From NCBI GenBank assembly GCA_021802545.1, contig JAJZRS010000012.1, positions 1-64,000 on the forward strand: DNA of 64,000 nt. Direction: 5' to 3'. The notes beneath the pieces are model-generated. The model worked only from the letters and a program-made list of their open reading frames with translations. It did not search any database and had not been told where the DNA came from. Position numbers and translations under genes: made by a program. Below are positions 44,505-50,660 of the stretch, in pieces. The DNA comes from Pseudomonadota bacterium. Its GTDB lineage: Bacteria > Pseudomonadota > Gammaproteobacteria > Burkholderiales > JABEVD01. The first letter of the stretch is position 1. Every line of letters starts with the position of its first letter.

Positions 44505-46883
44505 TCAGCCCATGTCAGAGACGCCAGAAAGCCTCAGGAGGCGATGAATCGACCACATCCCCAGGCCGGAAATTCCCACGATGAAAAACCATGCAACAGG
44601 ATGCAATGCGCTGAGGCCGAAGAAATGGTCCAGAAGCGGATTGTAGACGGCGAAAACCTGAAAAAGCGCAGCGCCCAGAATGAGTGCCCATACCCCCAAG
44701 CGATGCCTGGGAATCGAAGCCCTTTCGATGGAAGAGACATGGAAAACCGCATAGAGGCCCATCATCACGATGACCGAAACGGCCGCCGTCCTGCCTTCAA
44801 TGGAGCCTCCATCCAGGAAAAAGAAATTGACGTAGACGAAGAGCGTGAAAAAGGCGATGGTGAACCCGGTCACGAGCGCGAATTTCGTCGTCTCGTAGAG
44901 AAAATGTTCGACCGATTGCCTGCTGAAAACAGGCGTCATGAACGTCAGCGCCGTCGTCGGAACCCCGATGGTCAGCACGTCGATCCAGGTGATGTAGCGC
45001 GGACTCAAGGGAAATTCCAGTCCGACGAAGCCCGAAAACAGAATGAAGAACAGCGTGTAGATGTTCTTGGTCAGGAAAAGCCTCGAGACGCGCTTGATGT
45101 TGTAAATGATCCTGTCGCCTTCCTCGGAAGCGCCGGGAAGATAGGTGAATGCGTCCTTGAGGAGCACGATGTCGGAAACGTCGCGCGCCGCAGCAGCCCC
45201 CGTGTTCATGGCGACGCCGATATCGGCCTGCTTCAGGGCCAGGATGTCGTTGATGCCGTCCCCCACCATGCCGACGAACTCGCCGGAATTCTGGAGATGC
45301 TTGACGATGTGCATTTTCTGCTGCGGATCGAGGCGCCCGAAAAACTGTCCGCGAGAGACGGCGTCCATGAATTCGCGCGAGTCCGCATCATGAAGATCCT
45401 CTCCGCTCAAAAGATCGCCGTGCACCGTCATGCCGGCCTCTCTGGCCAATGCGGCAACGGTTTCAGGATGGTCCCCGGACAAGATCTTGAGTTTGACGTC
45501 GCGCGCTTCGTAGAATCTGATCGCGTCGATGACGTCCGGACGCAATTCGTCCTTCAGGACGATGAATGCGAGCAAGTTCAGGTCATCCCGATAGGGTAGC
45601 GGCTGGGGAGTGGCGCCGAAAGCGAGCACTCTGAAGCCCTTTTGCCTGAATCCGGCCAGAATTGCCTCTTGCGACGCATTCAGTTTCTTCCCGCAAAGCA
45701 CTTCAGGCGCCCCTAGCCAGAGCGAAATATCGGCACCACCTTCCTTCACTCTCGCCGCGCTCATTTTCTGCCCGGACGAAAAAGGAACCTCGTCGATGAC
45801 CTGGCAGGGAACGGGAGGATACTTCGCTTCGATGGCGAGCATGGTCTGGTTCTTTTCGCTCGCAGCAAAGTTGAACATCCTGATCCGCTTCACCGTCTCG
45901 TCAAAGGCGGATCCGAAGAAGACGAGTTCCTCGAAATTCAGCTTGTTGGTGCCCAGAGTCCCGGTCTTGTCGAGGCAAAGCGTGGTAATGTGGCTCATCG
46001 ACTCTATTGCGCAAAGCCGCTGCACGAGCACATGACGCCTTGCTGCACGCAATGCGCCGAGCGCGAAAGCCAGTGTGAGGATCAGCACCAGCCCCTCGGG
46101 TACCAGCGACTTGATGACGGTCACGATGGACAGGATGTTCGCCTCGAGGGTGACCTGCTTGACGAAATTCGCCAGCAGGAGAAGCAGCACGAAAAGGATC
46201 ATCACGGCAGTCAGAACCTGGATGATCGAATTGACGTCGTGCTGCAATGGGGAGCGGATGTTTCTGTATCTTCTCGCCTGCTCGGACAGCTCGTTGACCT
46301 TGGCTGCCCTGCCCACGCCGGTGGCGACATAGCGCCCCGATCCGCGCATGCAGTAGCTTCCTGAAAAGACCGTCCCGCCGCCAGCTTTTTCTACGGCATG
46401 GGATTCGCCAGTGAGCAGTGATTCATCCATGAAAACGGACTTGTCGGAAACCAGTATGCCATCTGCGACGATCTGATCCCCGGGGCCGAAAACGATGAGA
46501 TCGTCCTCGACGACTTCCTCGCTCCTGATTTCCTGTTCCTCGCCATCCCTGACCACCATAGCGGTTTTCTTGCGCAGCAGCGCGATCCTGTCGAGCGCCC
46601 ATTTCGCGCGCAACTCCCCGGTGATGCCGACCACCATGTTGCCCAAGGTGACGATGGCGAGAAAAAAAGCGTCGCTGTAGGACTCGATGACCAAAAGCGC
46701 AGCGATGGAGCCGGCGAGCACGCCGTTGAACAGGGTGACGATGTTGCTGCTCAGAATCCCGGAAACGGGGCGCGAGGTCGCCCTTTTGACCCAATTGACC
46801 TTCCCGTCCCTGACCCTTTGCGCGACTTCTTCTCGAGTCAGCCCATTTCCCTGGACGGGAGGAATTTCCGAAATTTTCTGCAT
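44505..46883 (-). CDS. cation-transporting P-type ATPase
   Basis: The 792-residue protein has the dephosphorylation loop TGES (158-161), the membrane-embedded PEGL (262-265), the phosphorylation site DKTGT with D305, and the hinge GDGIND. Ten or so membrane helices are predicted. PEGL rather than CPC rules out the usual Cu/Zn/Cd pumps and points to a P2/P3-like or CtpE-like pump of Ca2+, Mg2+ or similar cations. The substrate is not determined by what I can see. There are no N-terminal metal-binding domains. Confidence 0.9.
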   Translation of the reverse strand: MQKISEIPPVQGNGLTREEVAQRVRDGKVNWVKRATSRPVSGILSSNIVTLFNGVLAGSIAALLVIESYSDAFFLAIVTLGNMVVGITGELRAKWALDRIALLRKKTAMVVRDGEEQEIRSEEVVEDDLIVFGPGDQIVADGILVSDKSVFMDESLLTGESHAVEKAGGGTVFSGSYCMRGSGRYVATGVGRAAKVNELSEQARRYRNIRSPLQHDVNSIIQVLTAVMILFVLLLLLANFVKQVTLEANILSIVTVIKSLVPEGLVLILTLAFALGALRAARRHVLVQRLCAIESMSHITTLCLDKTGTLGTNKLNFEELVFFGSAFDETVKRIRMFNFAASEKNQTMLAIEAKYPPVPCQVIDEVPFSSGQKMSAARVKEGGADISLWLGAPEVLCGKKLNASQEAILAGFRQKGFRVLAFGATPQPLPYRDDLNLLAFIVLKDELRPDVIDAIRFYEARDVKLKILSGDHPETVAALAREAGMTVHGDLLSGEDLHDADSREFMDAVSRGQFFGRLDPQQKMHIVKHLQNSGEFVGMVGDGINDILALKQADIGVAMNTGAAAARDVSDIVLLKDAFTYLPGASEEGDRIIYNIKRVSRLFLTKNIYTLFFILFSGFVGLEFPLSPRYITWIDVLTIGVPTTALTFMTPVFSRQSVEHFLYETTKFALVTGFTIAFFTLFVYVNFFFLDGGSIEGRTAAVSVIVMMGLYAVFHVSSIERASIPRHRLGVWALILGAALFQVFAVYNPLLDHFFGLSALHPVAWFFIVGISGLGMWSIHRLLRLSGVSDMG

Positions 46884-46992: not shown

Positions 46993-47748
46993 ATGCTCCT
47001 GCTCGGCCTTGACCTCGAAACCGGCGGCGAATTCAATTCATCGTCAGACAAGAATTTCATCATCGAAATCGGCATGGTATTGTGGGATACGGAATTCAGC
47101 CAGCCCGTCGCGCTCTTTTCCGTCCTCGTCGACAACGATCGCCCGGTGTCTCCTGAGGCCGCCGAATATACCGGAATCACAGACGCACTCCTGAAGCGGC
47201 ACGGGGAGAAGCCTGACATCAGGATGCTCAATCCGATCAAGGACCTGATGAACAAGGCGGACTATATCGTTGCGCACAACGGGCGCGATTTCGACCGTCC
47301 GCTCATGGAAGCCTTCTTCAGCCAGCAAAGCCACAAAATGCCGGCCAAGCCATGGATAGACACCCTGCATGACGTGGATTATCCGAGAAACTGCAAGAGC
47401 CGCAACCTCACTTATCTCGCCGGCTTCCACGGCATCCTGAACAGTTTCCCGCACCGTGCCGTCACCGACGTGCTGACGATGCTGACCATCCTGTCACGCT
47501 ACGACATCGAAAACGTGATCGCCAATGCCAGCAATCCGAGGCTTGTCGTCAAGGCGGAGGTCGGTTTCAGCGAGCGCGAAAAGGCCAAGGCGAAGCGCTT
47601 TAGCTGGGAGTCTGCCGGAAAAGGCGGGGGCAAATTCCCGAAAAGCTGGGTCAGGATCATACGCGAGGATCAGCTCGAGGCATTGAAACAGGAATGCGAT
47701 TTTCCCATCGTAATCCTCGAGCGCCTGAAGCCGTCCTCGATGGTCTAG
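46993..47748 (+). CDS. DnaQ-like 3'-5' exonuclease
   Basis: The 251-residue protein has the three DEDD-type exonuclease motifs: D7 and E9 in LGLDLETGG, HNGRDFDRPLM (second acidic site), and HRAVTDVLTM with the catalytic H-x4-D. The C-terminal 80 residues are basic and not part of the nuclease fold (GFSEREKAKAKRFSWESAG). It is likely a DNA repair or RNA-processing nuclease; the substrate is unknown. Its stop shares the palindrome CTAG with the stop of the convergent gene, a four-base overlap. Confidence 0.88.
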   Translation: MLLLGLDLETGGEFNSSSDKNFIIEIGMVLWDTEFSQPVALFSVLVDNDRPVSPEAAEYTGITDALLKRHGEKPDIRMLNPIKDLMNKADYIVAHNGRDFDRPLMEAFFSQQSHKMPAKPWIDTLHDVDYPRNCKSRNLTYLAGFHGILNSFPHRAVTDVLTMLTILSRYDIENVIANASNPRLVVKAEVGFSEREKAKAKRFSWESAGKGGGKFPKSWVRIIREDQLEALKQECDFPIVILERLKPSSMV

Positions 47749-48119
47749 TTGCCGCCCATCCCCCTGCCGGGACCCATCCCGCCGCCCATGCCGCCTCCCA
47801 TTCCCTGCCCAGGAGGGCCCATGCCGTCCGGCCCTCTGCCGCGCATCATGCCTTGCTGCGGCATGTCAGGAAGCTTCATGCCCCGCTCCTTCGCCCTTTC
47901 CTGCATTTGCTTGTGATGTTCCCTGCGGAAAGCTTCTCGCTCCTCGCGGGTCTTCATGGAACGCATTTTTGATCGGTATTCCATTCTCTCCTGAGGCGTC
48001 ATCAGCTGGCTGCCGTAGATGCGCTGCCTCACCTGGTCCTGAGACTGCACGGCATCCGCAGAGAAGGACATGCCAGGGTATAGACAAAGCGCTGCGAGAA
48101 CAACAAGCATTTTTTTCAT
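47745..48119 (-). CDS. Met/Gly-rich periplasmic protein
   Basis: The 124-residue precursor starts at ATG 48119 after GGAGGAAC and has a Sec signal peptide (MKKMLVVLAALCLYPGMSFSA). The central part is two helical segments, QLMTPQERMEYRSKMRSMK and REEREAFRREHHKQMQERAK, resembling the LTxxQ repeats of CpxP/Spy-type proteins. The C-terminal tail is rich in Met and Gly (repeats of GMGG). Met and His clusters suggest metal binding. It is divergent from the ECF sigma factor gene with an 88-base gap, the place of a periplasmic sensor or target. The longer upstream frame is not supported. Confidence 0.8.
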   Translation of the reverse strand: MKKMLVVLAALCLYPGMSFSADAVQSQDQVRQRIYGSQLMTPQERMEYRSKMRSMKTREEREAFRREHHKQMQERAKERGMKLPDMPQQGMMRGRGPDGMGPPGQGMGGGMGGGMGPGRGMGGN

Positions 48120-48160
48120 TTGTTCCTCCACTGTTGGTATCCCGCTTTCAGTATAGAACA

Positions 48161-48190
48161 TGTAACCTTTTTCTTTCCGCTGAGTATAAG
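48161..48190 (+). promoter_or_regulatory. candidate ECF-type promoter of the sigma factor operon
   Basis: TGTAACC (48161-48167), a 16-base spacer and GTATAAG (48184-48190) have the AAC-containing -35 box and spacing of many ECF-sigma promoters, just ahead of the sigma factor gene. Autoregulation is typical of such genes. The assignment rests on pattern only. Confidence 0.35.
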
Positions 48191-48207
48191 GGGAACCACG
48201 GGGAGGA

Positions 48208-48753
48208 ATGGGATTGAAACTCGAAGCGTCGATTGGGAAAAGCTTATCTGGCGACAGGGGCGAATTTGCCGAAATAGTCAGACAGTTCCAGCGCCCGCTG
48301 TTCTCCTTCCTTGCCCGCATGGGTCTGGATCGTCCGGTCAGCGAGGACATTGCCCAGGAGACGTTCGTCCGGGCATGGATCAATCTCGGGCGATACGACC
48401 CTGCCGTGTCCAGGTTTTCGACATGGCTATTCACGATAGCGAGAAATCTTGCATTGAGCGAACTCGATCGGGCCGAAAAGCGTCCTGAAGCTCGGGAGAC
48501 GCTTCCGGATATCGCCTGCGAACAGCCCGGTCCTCATGAAAAACTCGATTTGTCGAGATCGATGAGCCGTCTCAGGCATGCCCTGTCCGGGCTTTCCCAG
48601 GCGGACAGAAGCATCCTTGCGCTTGCCTATGTCGAAGACATGACGCTGTCCGAAATTGCGAAAATCGAGGGCTGTACGAAAGTTGCTGCCAAGGTCAGGA
48701 TTCATCGCGCAAAAATGAAGCTGCGCATTTTGATGGAGAAGGAAAATGGTTGA
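48208..48753 (+). CDS. ECF-type RNA polymerase sigma factor
   Basis: The 181-residue protein has an intact sigma-2 domain (about 20-95, with EDIAQETFVRAWINL and RFSTWLFTIARNLALSEL) and an intact sigma-4 helix-turn-helix (about 120-175, LAYVEDMTLSEIAKIEGC). The ATG at 48208 directly abuts the ribosome-binding site GGAGGA. The in-frame TTG at 48214, 7 bases from it, may be the actual start. The last eight bases overlap the next gene, a small membrane protein that is probably its anti-sigma partner. Confidence 0.92.
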   Translation: MGLKLEASIGKSLSGDRGEFAEIVRQFQRPLFSFLARMGLDRPVSEDIAQETFVRAWINLGRYDPAVSRFSTWLFTIARNLALSELDRAEKRPEARETLPDIACEQPGPHEKLDLSRSMSRLRHALSGLSQADRSILALAYVEDMTLSEIAKIEGCTKVAAKVRIHRAKMKLRILMEKENG

Positions 48754-48964
48754 TGAACTCGATGGTCTGATGGGGAAGCTTTCCCAAGAACCTCCGGACG
48801 ACTTTTTGGAGGTGGTCATGCAGCGCATCGATGACCTCCCCCTTCCCGTACGCGCGCCCCGAGCCGACCTGCAATGGATCGCATTGATTGCAGCCGCGCT
48901 TGCCGGATTCGCACAACTCATCGCATTCCTATTCGGAATCTGGGCAGCCTCGGCTGCCGTTTGA
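48746..48964 (+). CDS. small membrane protein, possible mini anti-sigma factor
   Basis: The 72-residue protein has a polar cytoplasmic part (about 1-42, with LSQEPPDDFLEVVMQRIDDLP) and one membrane helix (about 44-66, LIAAALAGFAQLIAFLFG). It overlaps the sigma gene by eight bases, the usual position of an anti-sigma factor, but is too short to carry the common zinc-binding anti-sigma domain. Short one-helix anti-sigma factors such as CnrY are known. Function inferred from context only. Confidence 0.7.
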   Translation: MVDELDGLMGKLSQEPPDDFLEVVMQRIDDLPLPVRAPRADLQWIALIAAALAGFAQLIAFLFGIWAASAAV

Positions 48965-48980
48965 TACAGGAGAAATGATC

Positions 48981-49883
48981 ATGCAACCGTCCTTCCAGCC
49001 AAGGAATCCCTATTTCGCCCTTGTCATGTCCCTCTTTCTGCCCGGATTCGGCCAGCTCTACAACGGCGAACCGAACAAGGCGATCTGGATTTTCCTGACT
49101 TTCTTGCTATTCTTCATTCCCGGATCAGCGCTGGTCGCGCTTCACCTGCCGAGCCTCCTGGTGGTCCCCGCACTTTTCTCCGGTCTCGCCCTGACGCTCT
49201 GCCTGTGGCTCTACGGCATGATCGACGCATGGCGAGGCGCGAAGCAGGACTATGTATTGCAGTCCTGGCAGAAAAGCGGTCTTTATGCGCTGGTCTTCCT
49301 GGCCTGCAATATGCTCGCCTTTCCCCTTCTCATCGGCTACGTGCGCGCCCATGAAGTGGAAGCCTTCAAGATCCCGAGCAAAAGCATGGAGCCCGATATC
49401 CTCAACGGCGACTTCATTTTCGCCGACAAGCGCTACAATTGCCCGGGTTGCAAAGAGGCGGTGCGTCGAGGCGACATCGCCATTTTCGTCTATCCCAACG
49501 ATCGCACGCGCTATTACATCAAGCGCATCATCGGATTGCCGGGAGACCACGTGACGGTCAGGGGTCATGAAGTGACCCTGAACGGCAAGGCGCTTTCGGT
49601 GCGCGAAGCACAAGACAAAAGCGGGACTCAAGTCACCGAGGCAGTCGACGGAAGAAGCTGGCAAGCGCAATGGCTCAATGACGCCAAGGACACGCCCCAG
49701 GTCGACGAAATCGTCCCGCCAGGCCAGGTTTTCGTGATGGGCGACAACCGCAGGGAGAGCGTCGACTCACGCTTCTTCGGCACTGTCCCCCTCCAGGATG
49801 TGGTCGGACGGGCGCGCCAGGTATGGTTCTCGAAAAATCGCGACGGCGTGCGTTGGGGAAGACTGGGCAAGGTGCTGGAGTGA
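48981..49883 (+). CDS. lepB: signal peptidase I with extra N-terminal membrane region
   Basis: The 300-residue protein has the catalytic serine in IPSKSMEPDILNGD, the general-base lysine in YYIKRIIGLPGDHV, and the GDNRRESVDSR box of type I signal peptidases. The first 130 residues form extra membrane helices opening with LFLPGFGQLYNGEPNKA, a non-catalytic extension. The ATG at 48981 is 7 bases after AGGAGA; the frame extends upstream into the preceding gene. It is the third gene of the sigma-factor operon and is probably not the housekeeping lepB, which normally sits with lepA and rnc. Confidence 0.9.
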   Translation: MQPSFQPRNPYFALVMSLFLPGFGQLYNGEPNKAIWIFLTFLLFFIPGSALVALHLPSLLVVPALFSGLALTLCLWLYGMIDAWRGAKQDYVLQSWQKSGLYALVFLACNMLAFPLLIGYVRAHEVEAFKIPSKSMEPDILNGDFIFADKRYNCPGCKEAVRRGDIAIFVYPNDRTRYYIKRIIGLPGDHVTVRGHEVTLNGKALSVREAQDKSGTQVTEAVDGRSWQAQWLNDAKDTPQVDEIVPPGQVFVMGDNRRESVDSRFFGTVPLQDVVGRARQVWFSKNRDGVRWGRLGKVLE

Positions 49884-50118: not shown

Positions 50119-50445
50119 TCAATCCTCCAGAAGATATTCCCGCATCAAGAGGCGCGCCCTGTGCAGCCTGCTTTTGACGGCCGCGGTCGACAGGCTCAGG
50201 GAGGACGCCATTTCACCGATGGTGAGCTCTTCCAGGTCTCGCAGCAGGATGATTTCGCGGTAATGGATGGGCATGGATTCCAGCGCCTGGACCAATTCTA
50301 TCCGCACCGCATCGTCCACGTCGCTCGCCATGCAGTTTCGCCTCGCATAGCGGCGTATGTCAGGCTGACAGAGTCTCAACAGCTGATCGAGCGCGCCCGG
50401 GTGCCCCGTTCGCGCCGCTTCAAGCAATGATTCCACGTTCGGCAT
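50119..50445 (-). CDS. shortened sigma-70-type factor, region 2 mostly missing
   Basis: This 108-residue protein begins like an ECF-type factor (LLEAARTGHPGALDQLLRLC, RYARRNCMASDVDDAV). It then jumps directly to an intact sigma-4 (LVQALESMPIHYREIILLRD, LTIGEMASSLSLSTAAVKSR). About 60 to 70 residues that normally hold regions 2.3-2.4 and the linker are absent, without breaking the frame. Start ATG 50445 overlaps the DUF2892 stop codon. It may be a decayed sigma factor, or a -35-binding or core-binding regulator. Confidence 0.75.
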   Translation of the reverse strand: MPNVESLLEAARTGHPGALDQLLRLCQPDIRRYARRNCMASDVDDAVRIELVQALESMPIHYREIILLRDLEELTIGEMASSLSLSTAAVKSRLHRARLLMREYLLED

Positions 50446-50660
50446 CACGATTTCTCCTGGCGTCTCTGCAAGCGCCGGCCGGCCAGGGCGCACATCGGGC
50501 AGAAGCCGATCAGACCGGATGCCGTCAAGCCTGCAGCCGCCGCAACCAATATCCATTCGGCCATCCCGCCAAGCGCGAATGCGGAATAGCCCATCATGAC
50601 CAGACCGCCCCCGACGCGCATTGCTCTTTCCCAGACAGGCAAATTCTTGACGTAAAACAT
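50445..50660 (-). CDS. YgaP/DUF2892-type small membrane protein
   Basis: The 71-residue protein has the DUF2892 opening MFYVKNLPVWERAMRV and two membrane helices with GLVMMGYSAFAL and GLTASGLIGFCPMCALAG. The cysteine pair C-P-x-C at the end of the second helix is typical. A strong GGAGGGAAG ribosome-binding site precedes the ATG. It leads the operon with the shortened sigma factor and TusA-like gene. Members of this family often accompany sulfur-carrier or rhodanese genes. Confidence 0.88.
   Translation of the reverse strand: MFYVKNLPVWERAMRVGGGLVMMGYSAFALGGMAEWILVAAAAGLTASGLIGFCPMCALAGRRLQRRQEKS

Follow-up and report, generated by a model that had tools for sequence, protein, structure and literature searches.

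The 64,000-nucleotide stretch analysed here (the window) belongs to a genome of 2.77 Mb in 49 contigs (G000), and carries three closely packed genes encoding an extracytoplasmic function (ECF) sigma factor, a 72-residue membrane protein and a type I signal peptidase (Table 1). We think it fairly probable that these genes form a one-target switch, in which the sigma factor controls an inducible second signal peptidase. Comparison among genomes points to a conserved operon, to a promoter element found ahead of both sigma and peptidase genes, to a peptidase whose catalytic residues look intact and to a small protein bearing an anti-sigma-like motif.

Table 1. Features of the operon and its divergent neighbour (positions in the window)
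Feature	Position	Strand	Basis or remark
Probable promoter of the operon	48161-48190	+	TGTAAC 48161-48166, 17 bases, GTATAA 48184-48189; probably recognised by the ECF sigma factor that the operon encodes
ECF sigma factor, 181 residues, regions 2 and 4 only	48208-48753	+	Pfam; orthologue identity; PDB profile
72-residue probable anti-sigma factor	48746-48964	+	14-member alignment; PDB profile; structure prediction
Type I signal peptidase (S26) with N-terminal multi-helix membrane domain and YNCPGC cysteine pair	48981-49883	+	Pfam, NCBIfam, PDB profile
Met/Gly-rich gene, divergent from the sigma gene	47745-48119	-	Open reading frame

The genes and their products

A first-pass annotation of this DNA had described an intact ECF sigma factor, a tiny anti-sigma candidate devoid of the common zinc domain, a signal peptidase with an extra membrane domain and a divergent Met/Gly-rich protein; all four open reading frames were found where it had placed them, and the descriptions of the first three hold. 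At its 3′ end, the sigma gene shares 8 bases with the 72-residue gene. The peptidase gene follows after a gap of 16 bases and has no promoter site of its own there. Its start is probably the ATG at 48981 rather than the mechanically called TTG at 48888, since the relatives align from this ATG and a GGAG precedes it.

The sigma factor comprises regions 2 and 4 separated by a short linker, the layout expected of the ECF group. Indeed, Pfam matched both Sigma70_r2 (5.7e-17, residues 23-90 of 181) and Sigma70_r4_2 (2.8e-12, residues 121-172). The orthologues of G008 and G003 share 61% and 60% identity with it, respectively, and in a PDB profile search its nearest solved relative was SigW (5wuq_A, 2.5e-16), CnrH coming third (4cxf_A, 5.3e-13). 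The overlapping gene order and the conserved promoter ahead of the sigma gene are those one would expect of a co-transcribed anti-sigma factor and an autoregulated promoter.

The 72-residue protein matched nothing above cut-off in Pfam. In an alignment of 14 members, F20, V24 and M25 are invariant, and the AlphaFold2 (AF2) model (mean predicted local distance difference test score, pLDDT, 78.8) predicts helices at residues 2-12, 20-30 and 40-71, that is, two short helices followed by one membrane helix, which by eye is oriented N-in/C-out. This predicted layout resembles that of CnrY and agrees with the proposal, made in the first-pass annotation, that the tiny protein is a minimal anti-sigma factor. 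The top PDB match of a profile built from 14 relatives was RsiW (5wuq_C), over the PxDFTxxVM segment corresponding to RsiW helix 4, with an E-value of 0.2 that is not significant by itself; RsiW and SigW, the top matches of the small protein and of the sigma factor, belong to the same crystal complex. CnrY was absent from the 12 PDB profile hits of the small protein. The Hx3Cx2C zinc motif, missing from the window protein, was seen by eye in two of the 14 aligned orthologues, those of G502 and G402. These are longer (129 and 127 residues); their Hx3Cx2C lies in the N-terminal part, ahead of the PxxFxxxVM and membrane helix that the short forms also have. Since the longer forms carry the motif, the comparison suggests that the short proteins have lost a zinc module, on a tree that is unrooted. 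The small protein looks like a cut-down anti-sigma factor.

The C-terminal tail of these proteins is also constrained. All 15 Trp-bearing members, among 17 related sequences, end 6 or 7 residues after the conserved Trp (6 in the window). Over the 17 sequences, Ala, Gly, Ser and Thr together make up 71% of the last six residues, versus 35% of the preceding 20, and in 15 of the 17 the tail is uncharged. A relaxed small-x-small site lies within the last six residues of every one of the 17. The strict [AV]-x-A form occurs in 12, in two of them only at the Trp, and a conserved signal-peptidase site was therefore dropped as a rule for the family.

The peptidase has an S26 domain at residues 114-282 (Pfam 7.8e-42), preceded by about 110 residues, mostly membrane helices, with a weak resemblance to DUF5683/TM2 that stays below the Pfam cut-offs. 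Ser135, Lys181 and D255-N256-R257 (the GDNR box) are invariant in all 32 aligned rows. In the PDB profile search, all 11 hits were to signal peptidases or to the related SipA and LepA. The structure model of this enzyme (mean pLDDT 56, from 6 sequences) was too poor and was not used. A cysteine pair near the active site, Cys154/Cys157, is present in 15 of 15 sigma-linked rows (one of which, G052, has a broken sigma gene) and in 9 of 17 rows without an adjacent sigma gene, counts that are uncorrected for relatedness; the 17 include second copies from genomes whose sigma gene lies elsewhere. Because contig C39 (L200) of the window's genome encodes an ordinary LepB signal peptidase, the enzyme of the operon is a second copy.

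Two variants of the peptidase were observed in passing. In three genomes of genus g428, which includes Candidatus Thiothrix singaporensis, the sigma-linked peptidases (L202, L203, L204) are about 40 residues shorter between the Lys region and the GDNR box, and each of these genomes holds a second, full-length copy elsewhere. G793 has, about 0.6 kb beyond its full-length copy, a stretch that matches the C-terminal third of the peptidase (L206, 3241-3687, minus strand) and is probably a decayed tandem copy.

Promoter element and distribution of the operon

The element ahead of the sigma gene in the window reads TGTAACCTTTTTCTTTCCGCTGAGTATAAG. Its core, TGTAAC-N17-GTATAA, occurs once in the window's genome when up to one mismatch is allowed, and over 11 genome records seven of the eight exact matches lie ahead of this sigma gene or, in G041, of its remnant. 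A longer pattern, TGTAACCTTT-N13-GTATAA, was searched through 19 genome records. All 12 matches with no or one mismatch stand ahead of this sigma gene or this peptidase gene, and since every one of these close matches belongs to the system, the targets of the sigma factor are most likely limited to its own operon and the peptidase. The other 28 of the 40 matches have two mismatches; two of them belong to the system (G400, G402), and the 26 found elsewhere are at chance level, given the 104 hits of the reversed-pattern control.

A looser pattern (GNAAC or GAAC, 16-19 bases, GTATAA, within 110 bases of the start) was found upstream of 13 of 17 sigma genes, namely the 16 open ones and the broken one of G052. 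The four that failed have near matches: the site of L085 is 168 bases from the chosen start, and the three others differ by 1-2 bases. The same pattern was found upstream of 9 of 41 peptidase rows (40 distinct genes), versus 1 of 310 mechanically called control upstreams, a set from which loci L045-L048 were excluded because they hold true sites. The nine genomes with the element directly ahead of the peptidase are G825, G773, G798, G775, G458, G502, G808, G793 and G822. A sigma gene lies nearby in the first seven, with a GGAACC variant of the element in G458 and G502, and both the sigma and the peptidase genes carry a copy in G825, G798, G775, G458 and G502. The presence of the element ahead of the peptidase in these nine genomes points independently to the peptidase as the target of the sigma factor. 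The first-pass annotation had proposed looking for this motif ahead of other genes, and had held that separate, unrelated promoters would speak against a common system; the shared promoters tie the peptidase to the sigma factor.

A decayed form of the element stands ahead of the peptidase gene in Candidatus Thiothrix singaporensis. In three cases (L083, upstream of 7983; G793; G822) the peptidase promoter has been kept, whole or decayed, though no cognate sigma gene was found in the genome.

Peptidase searches were made at E ≤ 1e-45 in genome sets that overlap, each count including the centre genome. The peptidase was found in 4 of 399 genomes of the window's order and 7 of 369 of its class, in 30 of 234 relatives of G475 and in 5 of 185 relatives of G590. 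A scan of named genomes gave six loci, in three Proteobacteria bins of metagenome-assembled genomes (MAGs), Candidatus Thiothrix singaporensis, a Granulosicoccaceae MAG and a Rhodoferax MAG; the three bins are the same records as G008, G003 and G052. The three-gene neighbourhood, whose search across genomes had also been proposed, proved to be conserved: sigma gene, small gene and peptidase gene occur together with open frames at 14 aligned loci and in G798 and G775, making 16 genomes. These loci come from at least six families of the class (f1, f52, f102, f108, f125, f152) and from two further genomes. In G781, the sigma and peptidase genes are found together.

The sigma factor and the peptidase appear to have travelled together. 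Their distances correlate over 14 loci (r 0.78, Mantel p 0.0002), and the cognate sigma factor (at least 246 bits; other hits at most 123.3) was found in 6 of 19 genome records, always beside a peptidase copy. The four best sigma relatives among 60 genomes are the copies of G008, G003, G041 and G052, and in the searches made the sigma gene was not found apart from the peptidase. Judged from these comparisons, the operon is conserved, patchy in distribution and inherited as a unit. The carriers G000, G003 and G008 do not form one clade in an unrooted tree built from flanking genes (support 0.967 against), which implies that gains or losses of the operon have occurred. Beyond the operon in the window lies a gene that in G005 and G006 is reached after about 50 bases; with a gap of that size, the operon, a TusA gene, a second ECF sigma gene and a DUF2892-like gene (our own label, given without a Pfam run) fill a spot that is empty in these two genomes. 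Spread by plasmids was rejected as a route, as none of 429 matching plasmid records covers 80% of the peptidase.

Damaged copies were also encountered, and they could partly reflect assembly error. In G041 the sigma gene has a frameshift and the peptidase is reduced to its last part. In G808 a transposase-like gene sits between the sigma and small genes and takes the place of the first part of the small gene. The sigma gene of G052 carries an insert (L082, 7280-7450) of about 150 bases with, by eye, inverted CAGATT-type ends like those of a small mobile repeat. Apart from these copies, the second ECF sigma gene of the window (50119-50556, minus strand), which a TusA gene follows, has an internal deletion that keeps the frame and removes about 50 residues of region 2 relative to the longer copies of G008 (L080) and G003 (L081).

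A proposed switch for a second signal peptidase and its alternatives

How might such a switch work? The 72-residue protein would hold the ECF sigma factor at the inner membrane by wrapping around its regions 2 and 4. An envelope or secretion signal would remove the anti-sigma factor, probably through intramembrane cleavage by an RseP-type protease and degradation in the cytosol; a protease of the RseP family scored over the cut-off in 10 of 11 operon genomes tested, the exception being G003, whose assembly is fragmented. The freed sigma factor would then transcribe from TGTAAC-N17-GTATAA promoters, which in the window's genome would mean the operon alone. The output would be more sigma factor, more anti-sigma factor and, as effector, the extra signal peptidase, which would raise or alter the cell's capacity for signal-peptide cleavage. 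As for the physiological role, relief of a shortfall in signal-peptide processing is a suggestion that we make with some reserve.

Several points weigh against this switch. It is a reading drawn from comparison among genomes. The resemblance of the small protein to RsiW is below significance, as said above, and Pfam recognises no zinc anti-sigma domain even in the two Hx3Cx2C-bearing orthologues. One exact match to the core promoter lies in G001, an operon-free genome. The longer pattern missed the system's own sites in 6 of the 19 records (G458, G502, G782, G791, G779, G399), so that the claim of a single target is limited to the remaining records, and targets with weaker promoters could escape the pattern in any genome. 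Furthermore, 32 of the 41 peptidase rows have no promoter directly ahead; at least 15 of these follow the small gene or have lost it. The peptidase is present without cognate sigma factor in 13 of the 19 records, which amount to 12 distinct genomes since G399 and G826 appear to be one genome (their coordinates are identical), and in G052 a repeat-like insert breaks the sigma gene and a stop interrupts the small gene, the peptidase frame being open. The enzyme, so often without a sigma factor and still open in G052, must be able to work under other control too. Finally, the loci looked at outside the window's genus revealed no recognisable substrate gene that they have in common beside the operon.

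This last result bears equally on the most serious alternative, in which the peptidase, under a particular condition, is dedicated to one or a few special exported substrates instead of answering a general shortage of signal-peptide cleavage. Such dedicated processing would suit an accessory enzyme that stands beside a housekeeping one, has its own membrane domain, keeps its cysteine pair at all sigma-linked loci and occurs in many genomes without the sigma factor. However, those loci showed no common substrate gene, and we consider dedicated processing unlikely, if well worth keeping in view.

The peptidase could also be the site-1 protease of the small anti-sigma factor, its own product switching the sigma factor further on. 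A precedent for this exists in SipP and RsiP (PMC8844934), and the relaxed site at the end of all the small proteins would be compatible with such a cut. Nevertheless, the strict site is far from general in the family, and a cut at this end would shed a few residues from a protein that has no outer domain to lose. We hold this feedback loop to be improbable.

More speculatively, the small anti-sigma factor could mimic a signal peptide that has just been cleaved, and so report on signal-peptidase output. The idea comes from the way in which its helix ends, 6-7 residues after the Trp in a small-residue, uncharged tail, like the end of a cleaved signal peptide. RseP filters against bulky outer domains, and signal peptides are among the substrates of such proteases (PMC10202637); having no outer domain, the small protein should need no first cut before an RseP-type protease acts. 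With a working peptidase, freed signal peptides would occupy the protease and the anti-sigma factor would be spared. With faltering cleavage, the protease would destroy the anti-sigma factor and the sigma factor would fire, its sole output being more signal peptidase. We give this mimicry little credence.

An inducible second copy of an essential antibiotic target could, in principle, be a spare enzyme that replaces the housekeeping peptidase under arylomycin-type inhibitors. The resistance site, which we take to be a Pro seven residues before the catalytic Ser, is however an Ala in the window enzyme and a Pro in 5 of 32 rows, and the housekeeping enzyme has the Pro (EPF). By this site the spare enzyme would be the more sensitive one, which makes an antibiotic bypass very improbable.

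The first-pass annotation had read the locus as a CnrYXH-like metal switch, in which the divergent Met/Gly-rich protein would be the CnrX-like sensor or the target. Its open reading frame exists, but the LTxxQ-like repeats ascribed to it come down by eye to a single stretch, LMTPQER, and Pfam gave no LTXXQ or metal-sensor match at a maximum E-value of 10. The gene adjoins the same exonuclease gene in all eight same-genus relatives (in one case cut by the contig end), six of which have no operon; G003 and G008 are the only operon carriers among these eight, several of the same-genus assemblies being 82-96% complete. By eye, a similar -10-like element stands ahead of the Met/Gly-rich gene in the window and seven comparable relatives, whether the operon is present or not, and likeness to the operon-free relatives stops about where TGTAACC begins. 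The sigma promoter was not found on the strand of this gene. At loci outside the genus, no match to the Met/Gly-rich protein was better than E 0.003, and that in low-complexity stretches. The comparison of loci indicates that the gene is a neighbour and not a member of the system, and a sensor role for its product was rejected.

Other metal-related genes give a mixed picture, in which nothing recurrent points to a metal signal. A gene for a cation-transporting P-type ATPase lies 1.5 kb away (44505-46883) and is also present in operon-free relatives. In G502, a MerT mercuric transport gene (L207, 6900-7439, plus strand; Pfam 1.6e-32) is divergent from the sigma gene, at one of 16 loci. In G775, the divergent gene (L204, 1971-2351, minus strand) encodes by eye a small Met/His-rich one-helix protein beside a response regulator and a histidine kinase; this protein has no Pfam match and no clear kinship with the Met/Gly-rich protein of the window. 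Elsewhere outside the genus, the neighbours identified by eye or by Pfam include a WYL-type regulator, PIN, a YhaV toxin, an EamA transporter, an N-acetyltransferase and a CDP-alcohol transferase, among others, and no neighbour gene recurred among the loci looked at. The divergent Met/Gly-rich and Met/His-rich genes, MerT, the nearby ATPase and the third rank of CnrH among solved sigma factors are what speaks for a metal switch, and set against the exonuclease linkage, the operon-free relatives and an operon lacking a CnrX-type gene they leave it scarcely credible.

Comparison with known systems

Signal peptidase I is essential and is an antibiotic target. To our knowledge, little is known of how Gram-negative bacteria sense and adjust their signal peptidase capacity. 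If the sigma factor indeed has a single target, the three-gene set would be a natural sensor and reporter for signal-peptide processing, built on a very small and patchily distributed sigma, anti-sigma and promoter set. The comparison further suggests how an anti-sigma factor might become as short as about 70 residues, namely through loss of its zinc part. Searches of open-access papers showed no description of an ECF sigma, anti-sigma and signal peptidase operon, and its novelty is provisional. In PMC7406223, signal peptidase is mentioned only in the reference list.

The closest known relatives are SigW-RsiW and the ECF pairs with class I anti-sigma factors, which share with our operon a sigma factor of regions 2 and 4, a membrane anti-sigma candidate encoded just downstream and an autoregulatory promoter, and, for RsiW, a possible likeness of helix 4 over PxDFTxxVM. 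The present system differs in that 12 of 14 aligned small proteins lack Hx3Cx2C, the regulon is apparently one operon and the effector is a signal peptidase. Not all class I anti-sigma factors carry Hx3Cx2C, and CnrY consists of two helices that bind sigma4 and sigma2, the second being like helix 4 of the class I factors (PMC7406223). Given this description, the small protein may act in the manner of CnrY and yet be a different protein. Autoregulation, in turn, seems ordinary here and the target unusual, since most ECF operons are autoregulated (PMC8103513).

The likeness to CnrYXH of Cupriavidus metallidurans lies in the tiny anti-sigma candidate, predicted here to be two helices and a membrane helix. 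The operon has neither a CnrX-type sensor gene nor metal efflux genes, and its Met-rich neighbour is unlinked. In addition, the promoter was found in the window's genome only at the operon (core with up to one mismatch, longer pattern with up to two), and no metal-efflux gene is placed under it.

Type I signal peptidases do act with ECF sigma/anti-sigma pairs in SigP-RsiP-SipP of Bacillus thuringiensis and in SigV-RsiV. SipP cuts RsiP at VQS next to the membrane helix, and signal peptidases are the site-1 proteases for RsiV and RsiP in Bacillus (PMC8844934). There the peptidase cuts the anti-sigma factor and is the trigger, whereas here it is encoded by the operon, apparently driven by it, and would be the output; moreover, the anti-sigma candidate lacks the outer domain of RsiP and RsiV. 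As for the housekeeping LepB of the same genome, both enzymes are S26 Ser/Lys peptidases, and the operon enzyme, 33% identical to it over 210 columns, is set apart by its added N-terminal membrane domain and its CPGC motif.

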